Notes: generated by a model not told the origin, from the letters alone. Shown: positions 4,132-56,047, numbered from the stretch's first letter. The stretch is DNA of 64,000 nucleotides from Microcaldota archaeon (GCA_021799635.1 JAJZAB010000002.1:1-64000), one strand, 5' to 3'. A program made the numbers and translations.

Positions 4132-5010
4132 TCACGCAGTTTTGAACACATCCTTCCGTACTTCAGTGACATCGCCATTCTCTGCCATCACGTACAACAC
4201 CGCCCTTATGCCGTCTTCATCTATGCCGGTTTCTTTGGATATAGTGGCTACGTTGACTCCCTTCTGGCCGATGACCTTGTTTATCTTCGGTAGGCTTTTC
4301 GCTATAAATCCTTTTGTAACAATGTAGAACTTTTTGTTGAAGGCACGTGTGCCCACAACCAACCCCCTCCTTATACTCTCTTCAAGCGACGACGACGCGG
4401 CTGCTGCCTCGGTCTCAGTAGCCATTACCAGATACCCTCTTGCATCAAGCATTTTTATATAGTCCCCGCTTTCATCAAGCTTCTGCTCCCACTTCTTCTG
4501 CTGCTGGGCCTCTGGGGCAGCGGCTTCTGCCATCTGCGGGGATGGTACCACGGCGTTCCTCTTCCCAAAAAGGAAGTTGTCATATATGTATTTTGGTATT
4601 GTATATTTGTAGTCCTGCTCCCCGTCCTTCTTGTAAAGCATCACGAACTTCTTCTTTATAAGATCCTGCAGGGTCTTTTTTTCATCAGCGTTAAGCATGG
4701 AGCCGACCTTCTGTCCTGTCCTATTGTTGTATCTTATCGTGTCGAGCTTCTTCAGCACCTTAAGCTCATTTTCATCCGGGGCGCGGCCCTGTGCAGCCTG
4801 CTGCCTCCCAACATAAACCGGTTTTGCCGTGCTGCCAGGCGCGGCCCGGCCAGCGAGCACGTCTGCTATATAGCTTTTCTTTGCGAATAGGAAATAGTTG
4901 TCCTTCTTTATGAAGTCTATGTCATCTCCCTCATTTATGCCAAGCGCCCCTACTACCTCGAAGGGAAGGTAGACAACAAGCTTGTCCTTAATCTTATAGA
5001 CTTTCGACAA
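4132..5010 (-). CDS. AbrB/SpoVT-like N-terminal domain protein, putative DNA-binding, C-terminal winged-helix-like
   Basis: 292 aa; N-term KVYKIKDKLVVYLPFEVVGALGINEGDDIDF swapped-hairpin AbrB pattern. Confidence 0.55.
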   Translation of the reverse strand: MSKVYKIKDKLVVYLPFEVVGALGINEGDDIDFIKKDNYFLFAKKSYIADVLAGRAAPGSTAKPVYVGRQQAAQGRAPDENELKVLKKLDTIRYNNRTGQKVGSMLNADEKKTLQDLIKKKFVMLYKKDGEQDYKYTIPKYIYDNFLFGKRNAVVPSPQMAEAAAPEAQQQKKWEQKLDESGDYIKMLDARGYLVMATETEAAAASSSLEESIRRGLVVGTRAFNKKFYIVTKGFIAKSLPKINKVIGQKGVNVATISKETGIDEDGIRAVLYVMAENGDVTEVRKDVFKTA

Positions 5011-6613: not shown

Positions 6614-8506
6614 ATGTCATCACCATACGCAGTGCTGAAGAATTCAATAGAGAAGGGAATTGGTGAATCCCTGGCAGCACTGGGGTACAGCTTCCAGAAT
6701 ATAAATGGAACTATAGAGACTAAAGGGGTGGCAGGAGACATATCATGCTCAGTTGCGCTGAGGCTGTCAGGCGCCGCGGGGAAAAGCAGGGAGGAGCTTG
6801 CAGATCGCATAGCATCAGGAATTGGAAGGATCGCGTTTGTAGAAAAGGTTACAACCGAGAATGGGTTTATAAACTTTCATCTCGACAAACCGGCTTTTTC
6901 GAAAGAGGCAATAGCTTACATAATGAAGAGAAGGGAAGGGTCTGTTAGGTCTGATGAAAGGAAAACCGCAAAAATGATCGTAGAGTACCCGAGCGTGAAC
7001 CCGGTGCACCCCTGGCACGTGGGGCAGGTGCGCAGCGCAATACTCGGCGACGTAATGTCAAACATATATGAAGCCTGCGGCTATGTTGTGGAGAGGGAGG
7101 ACTACATAGACGACTTGGGGCTGCAGATGGCTGAGGCGGTGTGGGGCACGATAAACGCAGAGAGGCTGGGCATTGAAAGGGATGCAAAAAAGAAATTTGA
7201 TCATGCAGTAGGTGAAGTGTATGTATCGGTTAACAGGCTGTTGGAAAGAGAGCCCCAGCTAATCGGCGATATAAAAAAGGTCCTTGCTTCCATGGAGCAG
7301 GACGGCACTTACGAGTCGAAGCTGTCGAGGGAGATGGCGGAGGAATACGTCAGGGCGGAATACCTGACGGCCTTTGATTTTGGTATGTACCACAACGTTC
7401 TCATATGGGAGAGCGACATAGTCAGGAATAACCTGCTCGGCGCCGCGCTCGGCATACTGAAAGAAAAAGGGATAACAAAGAGGCCGAGCGAAGGCAAGTA
7501 CGCAAACTGCGTGGTCATAGATATAAAGGACCTGAAGAACCTGCCGAAGGAGCTCTCAGGGCTAAGGGAGGAATCAAAGGTGCTGGTCAGGAGCGACGGG
7601 ACACCCAACTATCTCGCAAAAGACATAGCGTTCCACATGTGGAAGTTAGGGATAATAAAGGATTGCTTTTTATTCAGGAAATTCATGGAATCGCAGCCCA
7701 ACGGCGCACCGCTATACACAACCGGACCGGGCGGAGACAGGATGGACTTCGGGGGCGGATACGGCGCCATAAACACCATAGACTCGAGGCAGAGCTATGA
7801 GCAGATGCTGATAAGGGTTGTGCTTGACTCTATAGGGGAGGGGGAGAGAGTGGCGATGCTGAAGCACCTCGCCTACGGAGTCGTGGAGCTGGAGAGCGGC
7901 CCGCTTGCTGGGAGGAGGGGAACCTTCGCTGGATACACAGCCGATGACCTGCTCAGGGAGGCGAAGGAAATGGCAAAATCGATGATAAAAAAGGGTGACC
8001 TCATGGGCGCCGCGCAGCGCGAATCCGTGGCGAGGGCGGTTGCGATCTCAGCCATAAAGTTCGAGTTCCTCAAGGTCTCCCCAGAGCGCAAGATAGTATT
8101 CTCATGGAAGAGGGCGCTGAACTTCGAGGGCGACTCTGGCCCGTACTGCCAGTACACCTACGCCAGGGCTGCAAGGATACTGGAGAAATCCGGACTCACG
8201 CATTCAGGAATTGACGGCGCAGATCTGTCCCAATTCACAGACGAGCGCGTATTTTCTTTGGTTAAGCTCATGGCAATGGCGCATTCGATGGTAGAAAAGG
8301 CTGCCGCGGAGTACAGGCCAAATGTAATAACCGAATATATAATAGACCTCGCAGTTAGTTTTAGCAGATTTTACGAAAACATACCGGTGCTGAAGAGCAA
8401 TACCGAGGAAGAGGCCAGGTCGAAGCTCGCAGTGGTATCCGCCTTCGCGCATACGATGCGTGGTATGCTCGGAGTGCTCGGCATAGAAGCGATAGACAGC
8501 ATGTAG
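6614..8506 (+). CDS. argS: Arginyl-tRNA synthetase
   Basis: 630 aa; VEYPSVNPVHPWHVGQVRSAILGD class I motif, DALR-like C-terminus. Confidence 0.95.
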   Translation: MSSPYAVLKNSIEKGIGESLAALGYSFQNINGTIETKGVAGDISCSVALRLSGAAGKSREELADRIASGIGRIAFVEKVTTENGFINFHLDKPAFSKEAIAYIMKRREGSVRSDERKTAKMIVEYPSVNPVHPWHVGQVRSAILGDVMSNIYEACGYVVEREDYIDDLGLQMAEAVWGTINAERLGIERDAKKKFDHAVGEVYVSVNRLLEREPQLIGDIKKVLASMEQDGTYESKLSREMAEEYVRAEYLTAFDFGMYHNVLIWESDIVRNNLLGAALGILKEKGITKRPSEGKYANCVVIDIKDLKNLPKELSGLREESKVLVRSDGTPNYLAKDIAFHMWKLGIIKDCFLFRKFMESQPNGAPLYTTGPGGDRMDFGGGYGAINTIDSRQSYEQMLIRVVLDSIGEGERVAMLKHLAYGVVELESGPLAGRRGTFAGYTADDLLREAKEMAKSMIKKGDLMGAAQRESVARAVAISAIKFEFLKVSPERKIVFSWKRALNFEGDSGPYCQYTYARAARILEKSGLTHSGIDGADLSQFTDERVFSLVKLMAMAHSMVEKAAAEYRPNVITEYIIDLAVSFSRFYENIPVLKSNTEEEARSKLAVVSAFAHTMRGMLGVLGIEAIDSM

Positions 8507-11494: not shown

Positions 11495-11569
11495 GCTCCG
11501 ATCGTCTAGCTCGGTCAAGGACACGGCCCTCTCAAGGCTGAAACTCGGGTTCAAATCCCGATCGGAGCA
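11495..11569 (+). tRNA. tRNA-Glu (CTC)
   Basis: GCTCCGA/TCGGAGC acceptor, CGGCC-CTCTCAA-GGCTG anticodon arm, GGGTTCAAATCCC. Confidence 0.93.
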
Positions 11570-11602
11570 AATAAGATTCGGGGTTATATATAAAAGCCAC
11601 AA

Positions 11603-11680
11603 ATGTCCCCCTTCTCTAACATAGTTTTAGCATGGAGACGGTATGAGAAAGAGAGGATGTTTTTTTATCTAGGGATGTAG
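11603..11680 (+). pseudogene. Truncated element ORF MSPFSNIVLAWRRYEKERMFFYLGM* directly after tRNA-Glu
   Basis: Homologous at DNA and protein level to 55934-56047; preceded by GGGGTTATATATA. Confidence 0.45.
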
Positions 11681-11940
11681 TTCATTACAAAATCAATTAG
11701 AGAATCCGCTCCAAAAGGTTCTAACCCAATAAATATTGAATCTATAGCCAGCAAAACAATGAAGATAACTGATACATTGTAAAAGGTATTTTCAAAACTC
11801 TGACCATTAAAGTAGTTAGGCATGCCTGAAAAATAAGAATTAACTATTTGAAGTCCGTACCCTATCACAGTAAAGATTACAACTCCGCAAAATGCAATGA
11901 GGAGGTGTTTTCCTAATGTCTTGAGCTTTTCAATGTCCAT
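11665..11940 (-). CDS. Small membrane protein, hypothetical (island)
   Basis: 91 aa, 2 TM, AT-rich region adjacent to tRNA-Glu. Confidence 0.5.
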   Translation of the reverse strand: MDIEKLKTLGKHLLIAFCGVVIFTVIGYGLQIVNSYFSGMPNYFNGQSFENTFYNVSVIFIVLLAIDSIFIGLEPFGADSLIDFVMNYIPR

Positions 11941-11988: not shown

Positions 11989-12270
11989 CTATCTTCTTTC
12001 TTCTTTTATTCTTTTCTTCAATCTAAACAAGTGCCTCTTTGATAATCCAATACGTCTAGCGTCTTTTGTAGTCATATTCTTGATAACACCTGTTATCTTT
12101 TGCTCTGTTTTGTTGTCGTAGATAACATAATCATTATCAGAAACACCGATAACTTCGCTTTCCTCTAGGTTGTTTGATTCTTTGCCGATGTGTTCAATAT
12201 CATTGATAACGATTTGTTTCCGTCTTAGCTCCCCTATATAGCCATCGTACTTGCCATAGTTATGATCCAT
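11989..12270 (-). CDS. Hypothetical protein with C-terminal HTH-like segment (island)
   Basis: 93 aa; C-term MTTKDARRIGLSKRHLFRLKKRIKEE. Confidence 0.45.
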   Translation of the reverse strand: MDHNYGKYDGYIGELRRKQIVINDIEHIGKESNNLEESEVIGVSDNDYVIYDNKTEQKITGVIKNMTTKDARRIGLSKRHLFRLKKRIKEERR

Positions 12271-12330
12271 GTAGCTAAAGAGGAATTCTACAGAACCAAG
12301 CTTTTAAACTTTTCTTGACGTATTTATATC

Positions 12331-42882: not shown

Positions 42883-43680
42883 TTACATGTATCCCAGCGC
42901 CCTAAGCCTCTGCATAACCATCTCGTTTTCCTTGTCCATGCTCCTTCCAGAGCGTTCCTCGGTCTTCGTTACCTCGAGCTCCTTTATTATCTGGTCTACG
43001 GTTCTGGCATCGGATTTCACAGGCACGGTGCAGTGCGTACATCCAAGGCTCCTGTACCTGAAGCCGTTTCTTGCGAAGTAGAGAGGGTTGACCGGTATGC
43101 GCTCCTGCTTCACATAGCTCCATATGTCTATCTCATTCCAATCTAGCAGCGGGTGCACCCTAACGTGGCTGCCACCGTCAAGCTTGGAGGAGTAGTCATC
43201 CCACAGCTCAGCCGGCTGGTTTTTGTAGTCCCACCTGAACTTCGCATCCCTTGGCGACATGTACCTCTCCTTGCTCCTTATCCCGTGCTCATCCCTCCTT
43301 ATCGATACTATCAGCGCATCGAAGCCGTGCTCCTTCATCACCTTTTTCAATGTCTCCGGCTTGTTCTTGCCGCAGCAAGCAGAGCCTATCGCATCAGGCT
43401 TCACATCGCTGTAGGCAACTATGAGGTTCAGCTTCCACTTCTTGGCGAGGTACTCTCTGAAAGAGTATGTCTCCGGGAAGTCTATCCTGTTGTCTATGTG
43501 TATAACTGGAAATGGCACTTTGCCAAGGAATGCCTTCCTTGCCAGGGCGAGCATAGTGGTTGAATCCTTGCCCATAGACCAGAGCGCAGCGATGTTGCTG
43601 AACTTCGAGTCGGCCTCCCTCAATATGTATATGCTTCTATCTTCCAGCGTCTTTAGGTTCTGTTTTATCATGATATCCAC
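42883..43680 (-). CDS. cysD: Sulfate adenylyltransferase subunit 2 / PAPS-reductase-family protein (CysD-like)
   Basis: SMGKDSTTMLALARKAF, IDNRIDFPETYSFREYLAKKW, VHPLLDWNEIDIWSYV. Confidence 0.85.
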   Translation of the reverse strand: MDIMIKQNLKTLEDRSIYILREADSKFSNIAALWSMGKDSTTMLALARKAFLGKVPFPVIHIDNRIDFPETYSFREYLAKKWKLNLIVAYSDVKPDAIGSACCGKNKPETLKKVMKEHGFDALIVSIRRDEHGIRSKERYMSPRDAKFRWDYKNQPAELWDDYSSKLDGGSHVRVHPLLDWNEIDIWSYVKQERIPVNPLYFARNGFRYRSLGCTHCTVPVKSDARTVDQIIKELEVTKTEERSGRSMDKENEMVMQRLRALGYM

Positions 43681-46587: not shown

Positions 46588-46660
46588 GGGGAGTTACGCT
46601 AACCTGGTAGACTACCAGCTTTGGGAGCTGGCCACCCGAGTTCAAATCTCGGACTCCCCA
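46588..46660 (+). tRNA. tRNA-Pro (TGG); apparent integration target
   Basis: GGGGAGT/ACTCCCC acceptor, CCAGC-TTTGGGA-GCTGG, 3' end CAAATCTCGGACTCCCCA repeated downstream. Confidence 0.93.
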
Positions 46661-46779
46661 TTTATGCTTATCGAGGATAAGGTTGTAAATTGGGGACATA
46701 AAGCTTTAAATAGCTTTGTTTCTATACTACTTGATTCTGCCAATATGGTGCTGAAAGTATATTGCCTGGATTATATGGT

Positions 46780-51484: not shown

Positions 51485-52082
51485 GGGCTTTGAAATCCCT
51501 TGCCTTCAGGCATGTGGATGAAAAAGCCACAATTTTCTATTTCTTTTTATCGTAGTAAATGTTAAGGCGGCCGTTAGGCCGCCGAAACGTGAACAACATG
51601 AATAGTGGGAACTATAAAAATAAAGAGTTTGCGCATGGGCCGCATTTGATTGGGGTAAGTGAATATCACTTGCAGTGGGTGACGAAATACAGGTATGAAA
51701 CCCTGTTGAAGGAAAGTCACTATGTTGACTGTGAAAACGCGCTGAAAAATGCGGCGGAAAGGCACGGAATATTCGTGAAAGAACTCGGCGTAATGCCGGA
51801 CCATGTCCACATGATCGTATTTCTGCCGCCGGAAATGAGTGTTTCAAAGGTGATAAATCTTCTGAAAGGATGCAGTTCCTACGAACTTTTCAAATTGCAC
51901 CCCAAATTTCGACTGCAATATCAAAGAGGACATTTTTGGGGAAGGGGTTACTTCTACAGATCCGTCAGCAATGTCGACGACGAAACGGCCAGCAGGTACG
52001 TAAGAGAAGATAACGATCCACGGCAAAGACGTCTCAATTGACCGCCATGGAAACCCACGCCTTTAGGCGTGGGAGGAGATCA
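51485..52082 (+). mobile_element. IS200-type insertion sequence (TnpA only)
   Basis: Left hairpin TGCCTTCAGGCA ~51500, right hairpin CCCACGCC-TTTA-GGCGTGGG at 52051-52070, internal tnpA. Confidence 0.85.
51598..52041 (+). CDS. tnpA: IS200/IS605-family Y1 transposase TnpA
   Basis: HLQWVTKYRYETLL, MPDHVHMIVFLPP (HUH), GYFYRSVSNV catalytic Tyr region. Confidence 0.95.
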   Translation: MNSGNYKNKEFAHGPHLIGVSEYHLQWVTKYRYETLLKESHYVDCENALKNAAERHGIFVKELGVMPDHVHMIVFLPPEMSVSKVINLLKGCSSYELFKLHPKFRLQYQRGHFWGRGYFYRSVSNVDDETASRYVREDNDPRQRRLN

Positions 52083-52113: not shown

Positions 52114-52131
52114 CAAATCTCGGACTCCCCA
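52114..52131. repeat. att-like copy B of tRNA-Pro 3' end (CAAATCTCGGACTCCCCA, 18/18)
   Basis: Exact match to 46643-46660. Confidence 0.8.
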
Positions 52132-52254
52132 ATTAAAGATAGGGGTTATATATAGAAGCATTAAGTGTTACCTTTTTGTAACATAGATAGACAGAGTAGC
52201 ATCGCTTTTATGCACAATGCAAAATTTATAATAGGAAATCGTGGCATAAATTAG

Positions 52255-52896
52255 TCATTTGCTGTCAGCGTTTAATGTCGTTTGAATTATTATCCTTACT
52301 GCCTTTTCTAGCATCGATTCCTCCATACTTGGTATTTTCTCGCGGGTTGCGTAGTGCACATGCTCCATAGTTACAACCTGCTTTGTTGTCAACGGCAAGT
52401 GAACAAAGCCTGCTTTTCTTATTCCAATTTTATCTGAGAGCCTCATAACTTCGTAGAACACTTCGTTTGATACGAAAGTATCTGGGAAAAATGAGTACTC
52501 CGCGGGTATGCCGTGATTTTGCAAGCTCGCTTTTATCTCTTTCAGCGGCAGCCCGGAAAAATACGCGCTTGGTCCATTTTCGTACAGTGGTTCGTCGAAC
52601 TCCTCTTTGTCATTTCTGAAATAATATCTGTTTATCGCAATTCTTTCCAACGATATGCAGCCCCTTCCGCCAGCCAGCCCCAAAGCTACCACAAACGCTG
52701 GCTTGTATTCTTCAACATAATTCTCAAGGACCTTCCTAACTTCCTTATGCTCTACCAGCAAAAGTTTGCCTACAATCGTAGTGTTCATTATCGTTTTGCC
52801 ATCCAGTTTCTTTGCAATCTCTCCAGAAGGATTATAAGTATAATTCAGAAACGGCCCGAATCCGGTTAAAAGCATATTCGTCGTTTTATGATTCAT
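52255..52896 (-). CDS. Pyrrolidone-carboxylate peptidase (C15) homolog with Ser at nucleophile position
   Basis: LLTGFGPFLNYTYNPSGEIAKKLDGK, GLAGGRGCISLERIAIN, DTFVSNEVFY (normally Cys-Asn), AGFVHLPL. Confidence 0.8.
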   Translation of the reverse strand: MNHKTTNMLLTGFGPFLNYTYNPSGEIAKKLDGKTIMNTTIVGKLLLVEHKEVRKVLENYVEEYKPAFVVALGLAGGRGCISLERIAINRYYFRNDKEEFDEPLYENGPSAYFSGLPLKEIKASLQNHGIPAEYSFFPDTFVSNEVFYEVMRLSDKIGIRKAGFVHLPLTTKQVVTMEHVHYATREKIPSMEESMLEKAVRIIIQTTLNADSK

Positions 52897-53131
52897 ACAA
52901 CCATCAGTATTTGATAATGCTATCTTTTTTATATGTTTCTGCATATACCGCAATGTTGACTTATTTATACTAACCTCTTGCGATCTCGCGGCGTTAAACT
53001 TAGCACCTTACTGCGAATATCTGTGTTATCCACCATTTATCTAGAGTTCTGGCATGTTAAATTGAAGCTTGATAAGTATATAATAATCAGCACAATAAGC
53101 ACACAGAATTGTATAACGAAATATAGCAAGT

Positions 53132-53184
53132 GATATACATTCCACAACATCTATTTTACGGGAGATTAGCGGACTCCCCATTTA
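53132..53184. repeat. Long direct repeat copy 1 (53 bp) containing the att core CGGACTCCCCA (scar C)
   Basis: 52/53 identical to 55851-55903. Confidence 0.9.
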
Positions 53185-53495
53185 TGCTTAGGGGTTATAT
53201 ATAACTCATCGAAATGCCTTCCTATTTTATCGTCTAAGTCAAATTCTACTATCTGTAAATTCTGTATCTTTTAGGAACGGAATCTTAACATAGTTTTAGT
53301 ATGGTGAAAAACCAGTTATGAAACTTTCTTTATGCCTTACCCCTAGTTTATATTATCTTATAATATTCAACACCTGATATTTATTATCAGTACAAGTGCA
53401 AAAGTATTTAAGGATCCAGCCTCACAATTACTTGAATTGGGATAAAGAACGAGAAAACTAGAATAATATAAAAATGCTAACTTTGAAGTGTAATT

Positions 53496-54338
53496 ATGGC
53501 TATTCTAGACGCATTAAAGAAGATCAGTGGCAATATAGGAACAGGCATCAAAAAATCAATAAACCAAGCACAAGAGAATGCTAGAGAAAATACCGAACGA
53601 CGAAATTTAAAGCGACGTCTATTAAGTTATTTCACTCGCAATCAATTGGATAGGATGTTACTACAATATGGTGAAAGTCCATTACCTAATTTTAGAAAAG
53701 ACCCCATAACCAATGAAAAATATAAAACAACTATGGATGACAGGATTAACGATTGCATCAACAAAATATCCCTAAAAAATATGGAAGTATTTGCTAGTAA
53801 AAACCTTAGGAATAATCCTTATGTACGAGATATGATAATTGAAATAGATAAATGGTTAGATGAGCAAAAAAAGAGGCGTCGAGATACTTCATCTCAAGTT
53901 ATAAAAACAGAGGGCGAGAATACGCCAATTTCTGAACTTACAAATTTATTAAATAAGATAAAGGTAAATTTTGAAGAAACGATGGGGGATCAGCACTATA
54001 ATACTGAAGACGAATTTAATAAAGCACTAGTTGCTTGGCTAAGAAGTAGATATGGAAATAAAATAGAAGACCCACATAATATCCACACAGGGCATTCGGG
54101 AGACATAGTTTATAACGGTGAGCAAGGTAGATATGTACTCGAACTAAAACTTGCTTATGGTGGATCGCTAGATTATGGTTTTAAGGAGATAGCAGAATAT
54201 AAATACTCGGGCGAATTTAAAGACATTGGTGTTATAATCTGGGATGATGGCCAGATGCCTTATGATAGTCTAAAAAGCGAACAGCGTAAACTTGAACTAA
54301 GTGGAGCGAAAGTTATAATTATAAAACCAAGAGCGTAG
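53496..54338 (+). CDS. Putative PD-(D/E)XK nuclease-fold protein (island)
   Basis: 280 aa; EDEFNKALVAWLRSRYG...HTGHSGDIVYNGEQGRYVLELKLA (GD-x(n)-ExK). Confidence 0.6.
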   Translation: MAILDALKKISGNIGTGIKKSINQAQENARENTERRNLKRRLLSYFTRNQLDRMLLQYGESPLPNFRKDPITNEKYKTTMDDRINDCINKISLKNMEVFASKNLRNNPYVRDMIIEIDKWLDEQKKRRRDTSSQVIKTEGENTPISELTNLLNKIKVNFEETMGDQHYNTEDEFNKALVAWLRSRYGNKIEDPHNIHTGHSGDIVYNGEQGRYVLELKLAYGGSLDYGFKEIAEYKYSGEFKDIGVIIWDDGQMPYDSLKSEQRKLELSGAKVIIIKPRA

Positions 54339-54549
54339 CAGTGGCGTTCTAATTTTATTGAAATCCGAGTCATAATTGTTTAAATACTTTCTAAGCGTTA
54401 AAAAGTAAGTTCACATGTGCGTTTACAAAAGAAGGCAGACTAACTTTGAAAATTTAAAATCACTCGGAAAACTCGGCATTGAAAACTTAGGTTATTACCT
54501 TTAGGATCTGGACACTTTGCGGATGTTTTGATTGGATGCTTTCCATGCG

Positions 54550-55368
54550 CTACTTTTTCCTTGCCACTAGCAGTACATGTACGCTTACATTTACAACCTC
54601 GGGCCTTGTGCATAAGTTGTAGTGCATTTCTAGCCAGTTCTTCCATGCCTTCTTGTTCTTTGCGAGCTTGTTTATGGCATCTATGGATGGAGTTGCTAGG
54701 CCCTCGAGGCCAGCAAGCTCTAGCACCTCTGCGTTCTTGCATGCAGCGCCGAATTCGCTGACCAGTTCATTCGGGGAGAAGTAATGGCAGTAGTACTTGC
54801 CTATCCAGAGACGGTCTTCGCCAGTCTTCCATAAGCTTCTGAAGTTGTCTGTGGCTATCTCTTCCGGCCACCCGCTCGGCCCCAGGGACACTGCGCCGTA
54901 CCTGTTCATAACCGATATGAAAATCGGGGCGCCGTGCTTTGCCACGCGCACCAGCTCAGACATTGCCTTCCTCCTCTTCGGCTTTCCGTAAACAAGCGAT
55001 AGCGGACCGCCCAGGCACAAAACGGCATCGAATGTCGAATCCTTGAATCCTGACAAATTCGTTATGTCTCCTACGACTGCACTTTTCACATTTTGGACAA
55101 TACCTTCACGCGCAATTTCTTTTTTTGCAGCCGCTATGTTGTGGCTTGATATGTCAAGCAGGACCATATTGTGGCCCTGCTTTGCAAGCTCAATCGTATA
55201 AACGCCAGTGCCGCCCCCGGCATCCAGCACAAGCCCTGCCTTGGGCAGGTACTTGTTAAGAAACATTAAAGTGGTGCTGAATTCTAGCGAATGGTACGGA
55301 TCCTGCTTTAGACGGATATGTTCGTGTTCCCAGTATGTTGAATAAAGCTTTCTTATATCTTTGATCAT
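54550..55368 (-). CDS. SAM-dependent methyltransferase (class I)
   Basis: GLVLDAGGGTGVYTIELAKQGHNMVLLDISSHNI; FDAVLCLGGPLS. Confidence 0.88.
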   Translation of the reverse strand: MIKDIRKLYSTYWEHEHIRLKQDPYHSLEFSTTLMFLNKYLPKAGLVLDAGGGTGVYTIELAKQGHNMVLLDISSHNIAAAKKEIAREGIVQNVKSAVVGDITNLSGFKDSTFDAVLCLGGPLSLVYGKPKRRKAMSELVRVAKHGAPIFISVMNRYGAVSLGPSGWPEEIATDNFRSLWKTGEDRLWIGKYYCHYFSPNELVSEFGAACKNAEVLELAGLEGLATPSIDAINKLAKNKKAWKNWLEMHYNLCTRPEVVNVSVHVLLVARKK

Positions 55369-55784
55369 GTTTTCACCACTTTAGCTTTAGCACTGGTTAG
55401 GATTTCTCTCCATGCGTCATGATTAAATTTGGTTAATGCATCATTAAATGTTGCCCAGATATACCCTTTGTGCTCTTGGCTAATAATTACCTTATCGTTT
55501 GGTACTTTTATAAGATATAAGAATATTATGCGTGTATTTCCAGTAGAACTGCTAACATATTCGTTTTTTCCTACAAAATTTTCTATCAACTCAAATTTTT
55601 CAATACCTGTTTCTTCTTTAAGTTCACGCTTAAGCGTTTCGATGTCATTTTCATCTTCTAACTGATGTCCTTTTGGAAACTCCCAGAAATCGCCATTTTT
55701 ATCAGCTCTATTTAATAATAAATAGAGGCCAGATGAATTAACAACTATCGCTCCAACAGATTTTTCTACTACCATACAAATCAC
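55365..55784 (-). CDS. NUDIX hydrolase (Ap4A-hydrolase-like)
   Basis: WEFPKGHQLEDENDIETLKRELKEETGI Nudix box. Confidence 0.92.
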   Translation of the reverse strand: MICMVVEKSVGAIVVNSSGLYLLLNRADKNGDFWEFPKGHQLEDENDIETLKRELKEETGIEKFELIENFVGKNEYVSSSTGNTRIIFLYLIKVPNDKVIISQEHKGYIWATFNDALTKFNHDAWREILTSAKAKVVKT

Positions 55785-55850
55785 TTTTTAATAAAAGTTT
55801 TTTTTCTATTACATCTATTAATCTATTTATAATTGCGATATATAGAGATC

Positions 55851-55903
55851 GATATACATTTCACAACATCTATTTTACGGGAGATTAGCGGACTCCCCAT
55901 TTA
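55851..55903. repeat. Long direct repeat copy 2 (53 bp) containing the att core (scar D)
   Basis: 52/53 identical to 53132-53184. Confidence 0.9.
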
Positions 55904-55933
55904 GATTTGTGTGGGTATATATAAATCCTTCAA

Positions 55934-56047
55934 ATGTCCCCATTCTCTAACATAGTTTTAGAGTGGAGAAGGGCTGAAAATGAAAAGATTGATTGCGTTA
56001 CGGCATATTTACGGATGCTACTTCCGATCCAAAATAAGAATTATTGA
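55934..56047 (+). pseudogene. Truncated element ORF MSPFSNIVLEWRRAENEKIDCVTAYLRMLLPIQNKNY*
   Basis: N-terminus matches ORF at 11603; GGGTATATATA upstream; 35 nt past att core. Confidence 0.45.

Follow-up and report, generated by a model that had tools for sequence, protein, structure and literature searches.

We analysed a 64,000-nt stretch of DNA from a Microcaldota archaeon (GCA_021799635.1 JAJZAB010000002.1:1-64000, hereafter the window), whose genome is represented by 749 kb in four contigs and is 88% complete. Four copies of a short module lie in the window where the original prediction had located them, one behind tRNA-Glu(CTC) and three behind tRNA-Pro 3′-end copies (ending at 52131, 53180, and 55899). 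We are highly confident that this module forms the terminal inverted repeats (TIRs) of Micrarchaeota casposons, transposons that encode a relative of the CRISPR enzyme Cas1, that these casposons make up one family, and that the copies in the window are one-ended leftovers of such elements at tRNA-Glu and tRNA-Pro. The sequences support this directly through TIR pairs, target-site duplications, a casposase, a polymerase remnant, and empty orthologous sites. The relevant features of the window are as follows.

11495-11569, plus strand: tRNA-Glu(CTC), an insertion target, found with ARAGORN; the orthologous locus in congeners is mostly without the module.
11566-11579, plus strand: 14-nt target segment AGCA+AATAAGATTC (the final 4 tRNA nucleotides and the 10 nt that follow), the expected tRNA-side copy of a target duplication, with the same 4+10 layout as in complete tRNA-linked elements.
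11580-11652, plus strand: casposon TIR, short form (profile match at 11578, 77.3 bits, E 3.9e-22), holding the 25-amino-acid (aa) reading MSPFSNIVLAWRR that starts at 11603.
11665-11940, minus strand: 91-aa small membrane-type protein, element cargo, with relatives at loci L160 and L141.
11992-12288, minus strand: remnant of the casposon PolB C-terminus (tblastn 4e-45, 84.8% identity).
46588-46660, plus strand: intact tRNA-Pro(TGG), an insertion target with no TIR behind it now.
46657-46670, plus strand: 14-mer CCCATTTATGCTTA, straddling the 3′ end of the intact tRNA-Pro and matching the 53.2-kb copy's target segment exactly.
52128-52141, plus strand: target segment CCCA+ATTAAAGATA, behind a 3′-end fragment of tRNA-Pro.
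52142-52186, plus strand: casposon TIR, degenerate short form (profile match at 52141, 33.6 bits, E 1.8e-8).
53117-53180, plus strand: tRNA-Pro copy with an internal deletion, together with the region upstream of it, within a 68-bp repeat that is 91% identical to 55836-55903.
53177-53190, plus strand: target segment CCCATTTATGCTTA.
53191-53320, plus strand: casposon TIR, long form (profile match at 53190, 95.9 bits, E 9.7e-28).
55836-55899, plus strand: second internally deleted tRNA-Pro copy, within the partner of the 68-bp repeat.
55896-55909, plus strand: target segment CCCA+TTTAGATTTG.
55910-55982, plus strand: casposon TIR, short form whose first bases are degenerate (profile match at 55911, 61.6 bits, E 3.3e-17), holding the 37-aa reading MSPFSNIVLEWRR at 55934.

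The recurrence of these sequences far exceeds chance. The stretch GGGGTTATATATA matches at 11580, 52142, and 53191 (0.13 matches expected with at most one mismatch) and is degenerate in the 55.9-kb copy, where it reads TGTGGGTATATATA. Further inside the module, TTCTCTAACATAGTTTTAG is exact at 11612 and 55943 (0.02 expected) and TAACATAGTTTTAG additionally occurs at 53286; the TAACATAGTTTTAG core is confined to these three places in this genome. The two open reading frames (ORFs) of 25 and 37 aa, as well as a GTG-initiated LPFCNI reading, are present as earlier described. All four copies carry the TIR at a fixed position behind tRNA-derived sequence. The intact tRNA-Pro has no module behind it.

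The nature of the module became evident from complete elements in related genomes. At locus L105, two modules 8.5 kb apart face each other, and each is edged on its outer side by AGCATGCTGAACAA, within which AGCA is the end of a tRNA-Glu. A scan of all fetched loci yielded nine distinct elements with inverted modules at both ends and 14-bp duplications, eight of which are perfect; as a control, random position pairs agreed with at most three mismatches in 11 of 6000 trials. In tRNA-linked elements, the duplication consists of the last 4 nt of the tRNA and the next 10 nt. Facing modules within flanking 14-bp duplications identify the module as a terminal inverted repeat and the 14-mer as a target-site duplication. 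Seven of the elements carry casposase and polymerase genes, either intact or broken. The remaining two are small: L141 (1.4 kb, perfect duplication) encodes a ParE-type toxin and a polymerase scrap without cas1, and L139 (2.85 kb, one mismatch in the duplication) lacks casposon genes. Three further loci were not counted: L115 and L123 resemble TIR pairs, but their outer flanks mismatch, and L110 has just a 12-bp imperfect repeat. Beside the intact casposon of L193, an 18-bp palindrome, GGGGTTATATATAACCCC, composed of two fused TIR tips, lies between two copies of the target duplication (4938-4981) and is perhaps the footprint of a deleted element.

The gene content of these elements points to casposons. 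The Cas1 of L105 (403 aa, encoded at 6766-7977) matches the Pfam family Cas_Cas1 (4.8e-59), and its best match in PDB is 6opm, the Methanosarcina mazei casposase (E 1.8e-78), which aligns over residues 2-400, C-terminal domain included. Motifs around the expected catalytic residues are present (YEGRIADIYW, FLHE, and YDIQE). The same core genes recur between the TIR pairs of L193, L194, L196, and L197, each with an intact Cas1 that lies outside CRISPR loci, whereas the copies in L200 and L202 are broken. A second large protein, the putative polymerase (883 aa in L105 and about 880-900 aa in the elements with intact cas1), displays the B-family polymerase motifs DFTSMYPS, KIIANATSYG, and YCDTDS, the last of which is similar to the motif of PolB_CDTDS, a group with a casposon polymerase among its members (PMC7544198). 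Cas1 and PolB share a C-terminal domain (residues 364-400 and 840-876, respectively; 49% identity, E 3e-7); in family 2 casposons, the domain found at this place in both proteins is reported to be a helix-turn-helix (HTH) (PMC4046053). A small 96-aa element protein has an HNH-like motif and a weak match to the PHROGs HNH family (E 0.003), and conserved proteins of 113, 221, and 388 aa are without profile matches. No Cas2 or effector was seen in the elements. Some loci additionally carry cargo whose matches are defence-like, namely a DndB/DpdB-like match, one to an Eco57I-type methyltransferase, and a weak, below-cut-off GapS1-like match (L200 7328-9631, L193 5858-7579, and L115 3402-4922).

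Among L105, L193, L194, and L196, whose hosts belong to two families, Cas1 is 82-90% and PolB 76-89% identical. Host proteins compared within that genus to which the window belongs show identities of about 33-87%, and we read this, although the comparisons use different proteins for elements and hosts, as horizontal spread of the elements.

Aligning the module copies revealed a single layout: the tRNA end, 10 nt, GGGGTTATATATA, about 10 nt, ATGTCCCCCTTCT or ATGTTACCTTTTT, and CTAACATAGTTTTAGCATGGAGA. The original prediction had emphasised a constant distance to a start codon; the actual constant is the gap from the tRNA end to the GGGG of the module, exactly 10 nt in 48 of the 54 tRNA-linked copies. 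The module has a short form of about 65 bp and a long form of about 130 bp, in which a conserved block of about 59 nt separates the two halves. What had been described as a 60-90 nt insertion in the 53.2-kb copy is instead this long form, which is common to about ten genomic copies and also occupies one end of the casposase elements L200 and L202. The earlier proposal of one integrative-element family using two tRNAs in the window is supported, with no fewer than seven tRNA species serving as targets in relatives (Glu, Pro, Ile, Lys, Val, Gln, and Arg). The module also occurs at distal element ends with no tRNA upstream. At the orthologous tRNA-Glu, the site is empty in five congeners (G001, G002, G003, G004, and G007), holds a full TIR in G005, and a degenerate one in G008. 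The module is therefore not a gene that constantly follows tRNAs, a possibility that the original prediction had raised against itself.

These regularities are consistent with an insertion mechanism inferred from characterised casposases. The Cas1 integrase would cut 4 nt inside the tRNA 3′ end on one strand and 10 nt past it on the other; such an offset would preserve the tRNA sequence, leave a 14-nt target duplication around the element, and produce the order tRNA, 10 nt, GGGGTTATATATA. Because the target is retained, insertions could stack at one tRNA. In the window, the element bodies would then have been deleted or replaced, save for the polymerase piece behind the tRNA-Glu copy.

This piece (99 codons, ORF 11989-12270) corresponds to residues 769-867 of the L105 polymerase. 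The adjacent 91-aa cargo protein is 84% identical to its copy in L160 (genome G016) and 67% identical to that in L141 (G142), each of which also adjoins a TIR and a polymerase scrap. The order TIR, small membrane protein, and PolB scrap occurs behind different tRNAs in three genera. At most TIR loci, scraps are all that is left of Cas1 or polymerase, and they are nearly always C-terminal. Because both genes of an intact element face outward, internal deletion leaves precisely such ends. With their variable breakpoints and, in some cases, in-frame stops, the scraps look like products of decay, and we infer that element bodies were lost through deletion. The nearly constant C-terminal position prompted the idea that the scraps are stand-alone C-terminal domains acting as TIR-binding repressors, which we rejected on account of the outward gene orientation, varying breakpoints, and stops in some copies. 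Two further scraps are unusual: at L131 (889-1338), the end of the polymerase runs straight into the C-terminal third of Cas1 within one reading frame, which a deletion appears to have fused, and at L240 (9929-10068, congener G007), internal Cas1 scraps (residues 235-281), with no detected TIR close by, are apparently fused to a polymerase fragment.

Several observations weigh against the casposon interpretation. The window contains neither a distal, facing TIR (at most two mismatches) nor a second tRNA-Glu target segment, which rules out a complete element there, and no Cas1 was found in the host genome, at its 88% completeness; hence our description of the copies as one-ended remnants. The putative polymerase has no Pfam or PDB profile match and is assigned by its motifs and position. 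Finally, the two tRNA-Pro copies with internal deletions (53.1 and 55.8 kb) contain more tRNA than a 14-nt target duplication accounts for. In these repeats (53117-53184 and 55836-55903), just the acceptor-stem strands of the tRNA are retained (GGGAG..CTCCCC).

Two other observations concern the surroundings of the window copies. An IS200-type Y1 transposase gene (51559-52041) lies directly upstream of the 52.1-kb copy. The distance from the end of tRNA-Glu to the gene at 43153 (11569-43153) is about 31 kb, whereas two congeners, G004 and G008, have about 6-9 kb there, indicating that far more DNA than the visible remnant was gained or rearranged here.

The lone TIR copies might not be products of decay but functional non-autonomous elements, natural mini-casposons mobilised in trans by the casposases of other elements or of other cells. 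L141 and L139 demonstrate that small complete elements without cas1 exist, the arrangement shared by the window, L160, and L141 recurs behind different tRNAs in three genera, and an engineered M. mazei mini-casposon moves in trans (PMC10359463). However, most copies, including all those in the window, have a single detectable TIR, and variable breakpoints with some in-frame stops are what decay after insertion predicts. We therefore regard this alternative as serious yet somewhat improbable. A combined scenario comes closer to an even chance, though still short of it: natural casposase-less casposons carrying toxin-antitoxin or other cargo may move in trans between tRNAs and Micrarchaeota genera, the lone ends in the window being the debris of this traffic.

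A very improbable explanation is the one suggested by the original prediction, in which the module is the N-terminal part of an SSV-type split integrase, or another att-proximal gene of a tyrosine-recombinase element. The module does sit behind tRNA 3′ ends, 48 of the 56 short-form copies have ATG, GTG, or TTG where a start codon would be expected, and variation is slightly higher at third codon positions than at the other two (0.184 versus 0.096 and 0.122). However, this codon-position signal is partly due to the alternative blocks TCCCCCTTCT and TTACCTTTTT, in 10 of the 56 copies the reading ends by about codon 11, the ORFs have a median length of 23 aa with no conserved continuation, and the long form breaks the reading. 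Moreover, the same sequence is inverted at both ends of complete elements, which encode a separate, intact Cas1-type casposase with its own start elsewhere in the element (6766-7977 in L105). No tyrosine recombinase appeared among the Pfam matches of the tested island ORFs of the window or of the L105 element, and none is needed, since the TIRs, target-site duplications, and casposase explain the ends. Searched as a protein, the 36-aa ORF matched 26 of 100 related genomes over short stretches; the strongest matches start at residue 1 and fade after about 14-23 aa, pointing to conserved DNA rather than to a protein. The MSPFSNIVL..WRR ORF is thus best read as TIR sequence and not as a gene. Equally hard to credit is a conserved promoter or non-coding RNA belonging behind host tRNA genes: the sequence is strongly conserved and TTATATATA resembles an archaeal TATA box, and a promoter role inside the TIR may exist, but the module is missing behind orthologous tRNA-Glu genes of congeners, occurs at distal element ends with no tRNA upstream, and Rfam matches in the window are tRNAs only, with no dedicated structure test made.

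The casposon TIR proved to be widespread within one order. Its core TAACATAG, searched as CTAACATAGTTTTAGCATGGAGA with at most three mismatches, has 68 sites, spread over 42 of the 165 genomes from the same Micrarchaeota order, while a reversed control had no match in these 165 genomes. No match with at most two mismatches was found in 137 other genomes of the phylum, and viral contigs had neither an exact module match nor a casposase relative. The named records bearing the module are metagenome-assembled genomes of Candidatus Micrarchaeota, one of them filed as Marsarchaeota, and from our reading of their isolate codes they come from acid mine drainage. Many modules reside within a few hundred bases of contig ends (G056, G028, G095, G070, G142, and G009); the repeats therefore probably break metagenome assemblies, and copy numbers are probably underestimated.

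Casposons are known for TIRs, 14-15 bp target duplications, tRNA 3′-end targets, and tandem insertion (PMC4046053, PMC10359463); the duplications have a median of 15 nt (Krupovic et al. 2014, PMC4046053) and measure 14 nt in MetMaz-C1 (PMC10359463), and the elements insert at the 3′ end of tRNA or aEF-2 genes. The Micrarchaeota elements are most like family 2 casposons, such as MetMaz-C1 of M. mazei, which encode an HNH endonuclease and two HTH proteins and whose Cas1 and PolB bear similar C-terminal HTH domains (PMC4046053). Shared traits include a Cas1 C-terminal extension resembling the PolB C-terminus, small proteins (here including one with a weak HNH-like match), a size of 5-13 kb, TIRs, target duplications, tandem insertions, and insertion overlapping 4-7 nt of tRNA 3′ ends; the MetMaz-C1 TIR start, GGGATATAGGTAACTC, is also similar in flavour to the Micrarchaeota GGGGTTATATATAACTC. 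The hosts differ, however, being Micrarchaeota here and Euryarchaeota there; elements throughout the order share one TIR sequence and use at least seven tRNA species as targets, and deletion derivatives and lone ends far outnumber intact elements. In having cargo between TIRs without cas1, L141 and L139 are like the engineered M. mazei mini-casposon (PMC10359463), but they are natural and known from sequence alone. CRISPR adaptation by Cas1-Cas2 employs a related Cas1 integrase that likewise inserts beside a fixed leader-like sequence, here the tRNA, and duplicates its target, whereas what is inserted in our case is an entire element and not a spacer. SSV-type and other tyrosine-integrase islands similarly preserve the tRNA on insertion at its 3′ end; in contrast, the elements examined here have true TIRs, 14-bp duplications, just 4 nt of repeated tRNA, and no tyrosine integrase. 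We found no description of Micrarchaeota casposons or of natural non-autonomous casposons in the searchable literature, beyond which papers may exist; neither the Micrarchaeota hosts nor the shared TIR nor the numerous deletion derivatives appear to have been described there.

The enzymes of CRISPR adaptation are considered to derive from casposons. Our analysis adds a casposon set, natural derivatives without a casposase among them, for a DPANN lineage in which no earlier description turned up. It also provides a ruler-like insertion rule, 4 nt of tRNA and 10 nt beyond, derived from dozens of sites, and a shared end sequence that flags casposon insertions at the DNA level, with no need for their genes, and can help to locate more such insertions in small archaeal genomes. 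With this rule and this end sequence, how casposases recognise their targets can be tested directly.

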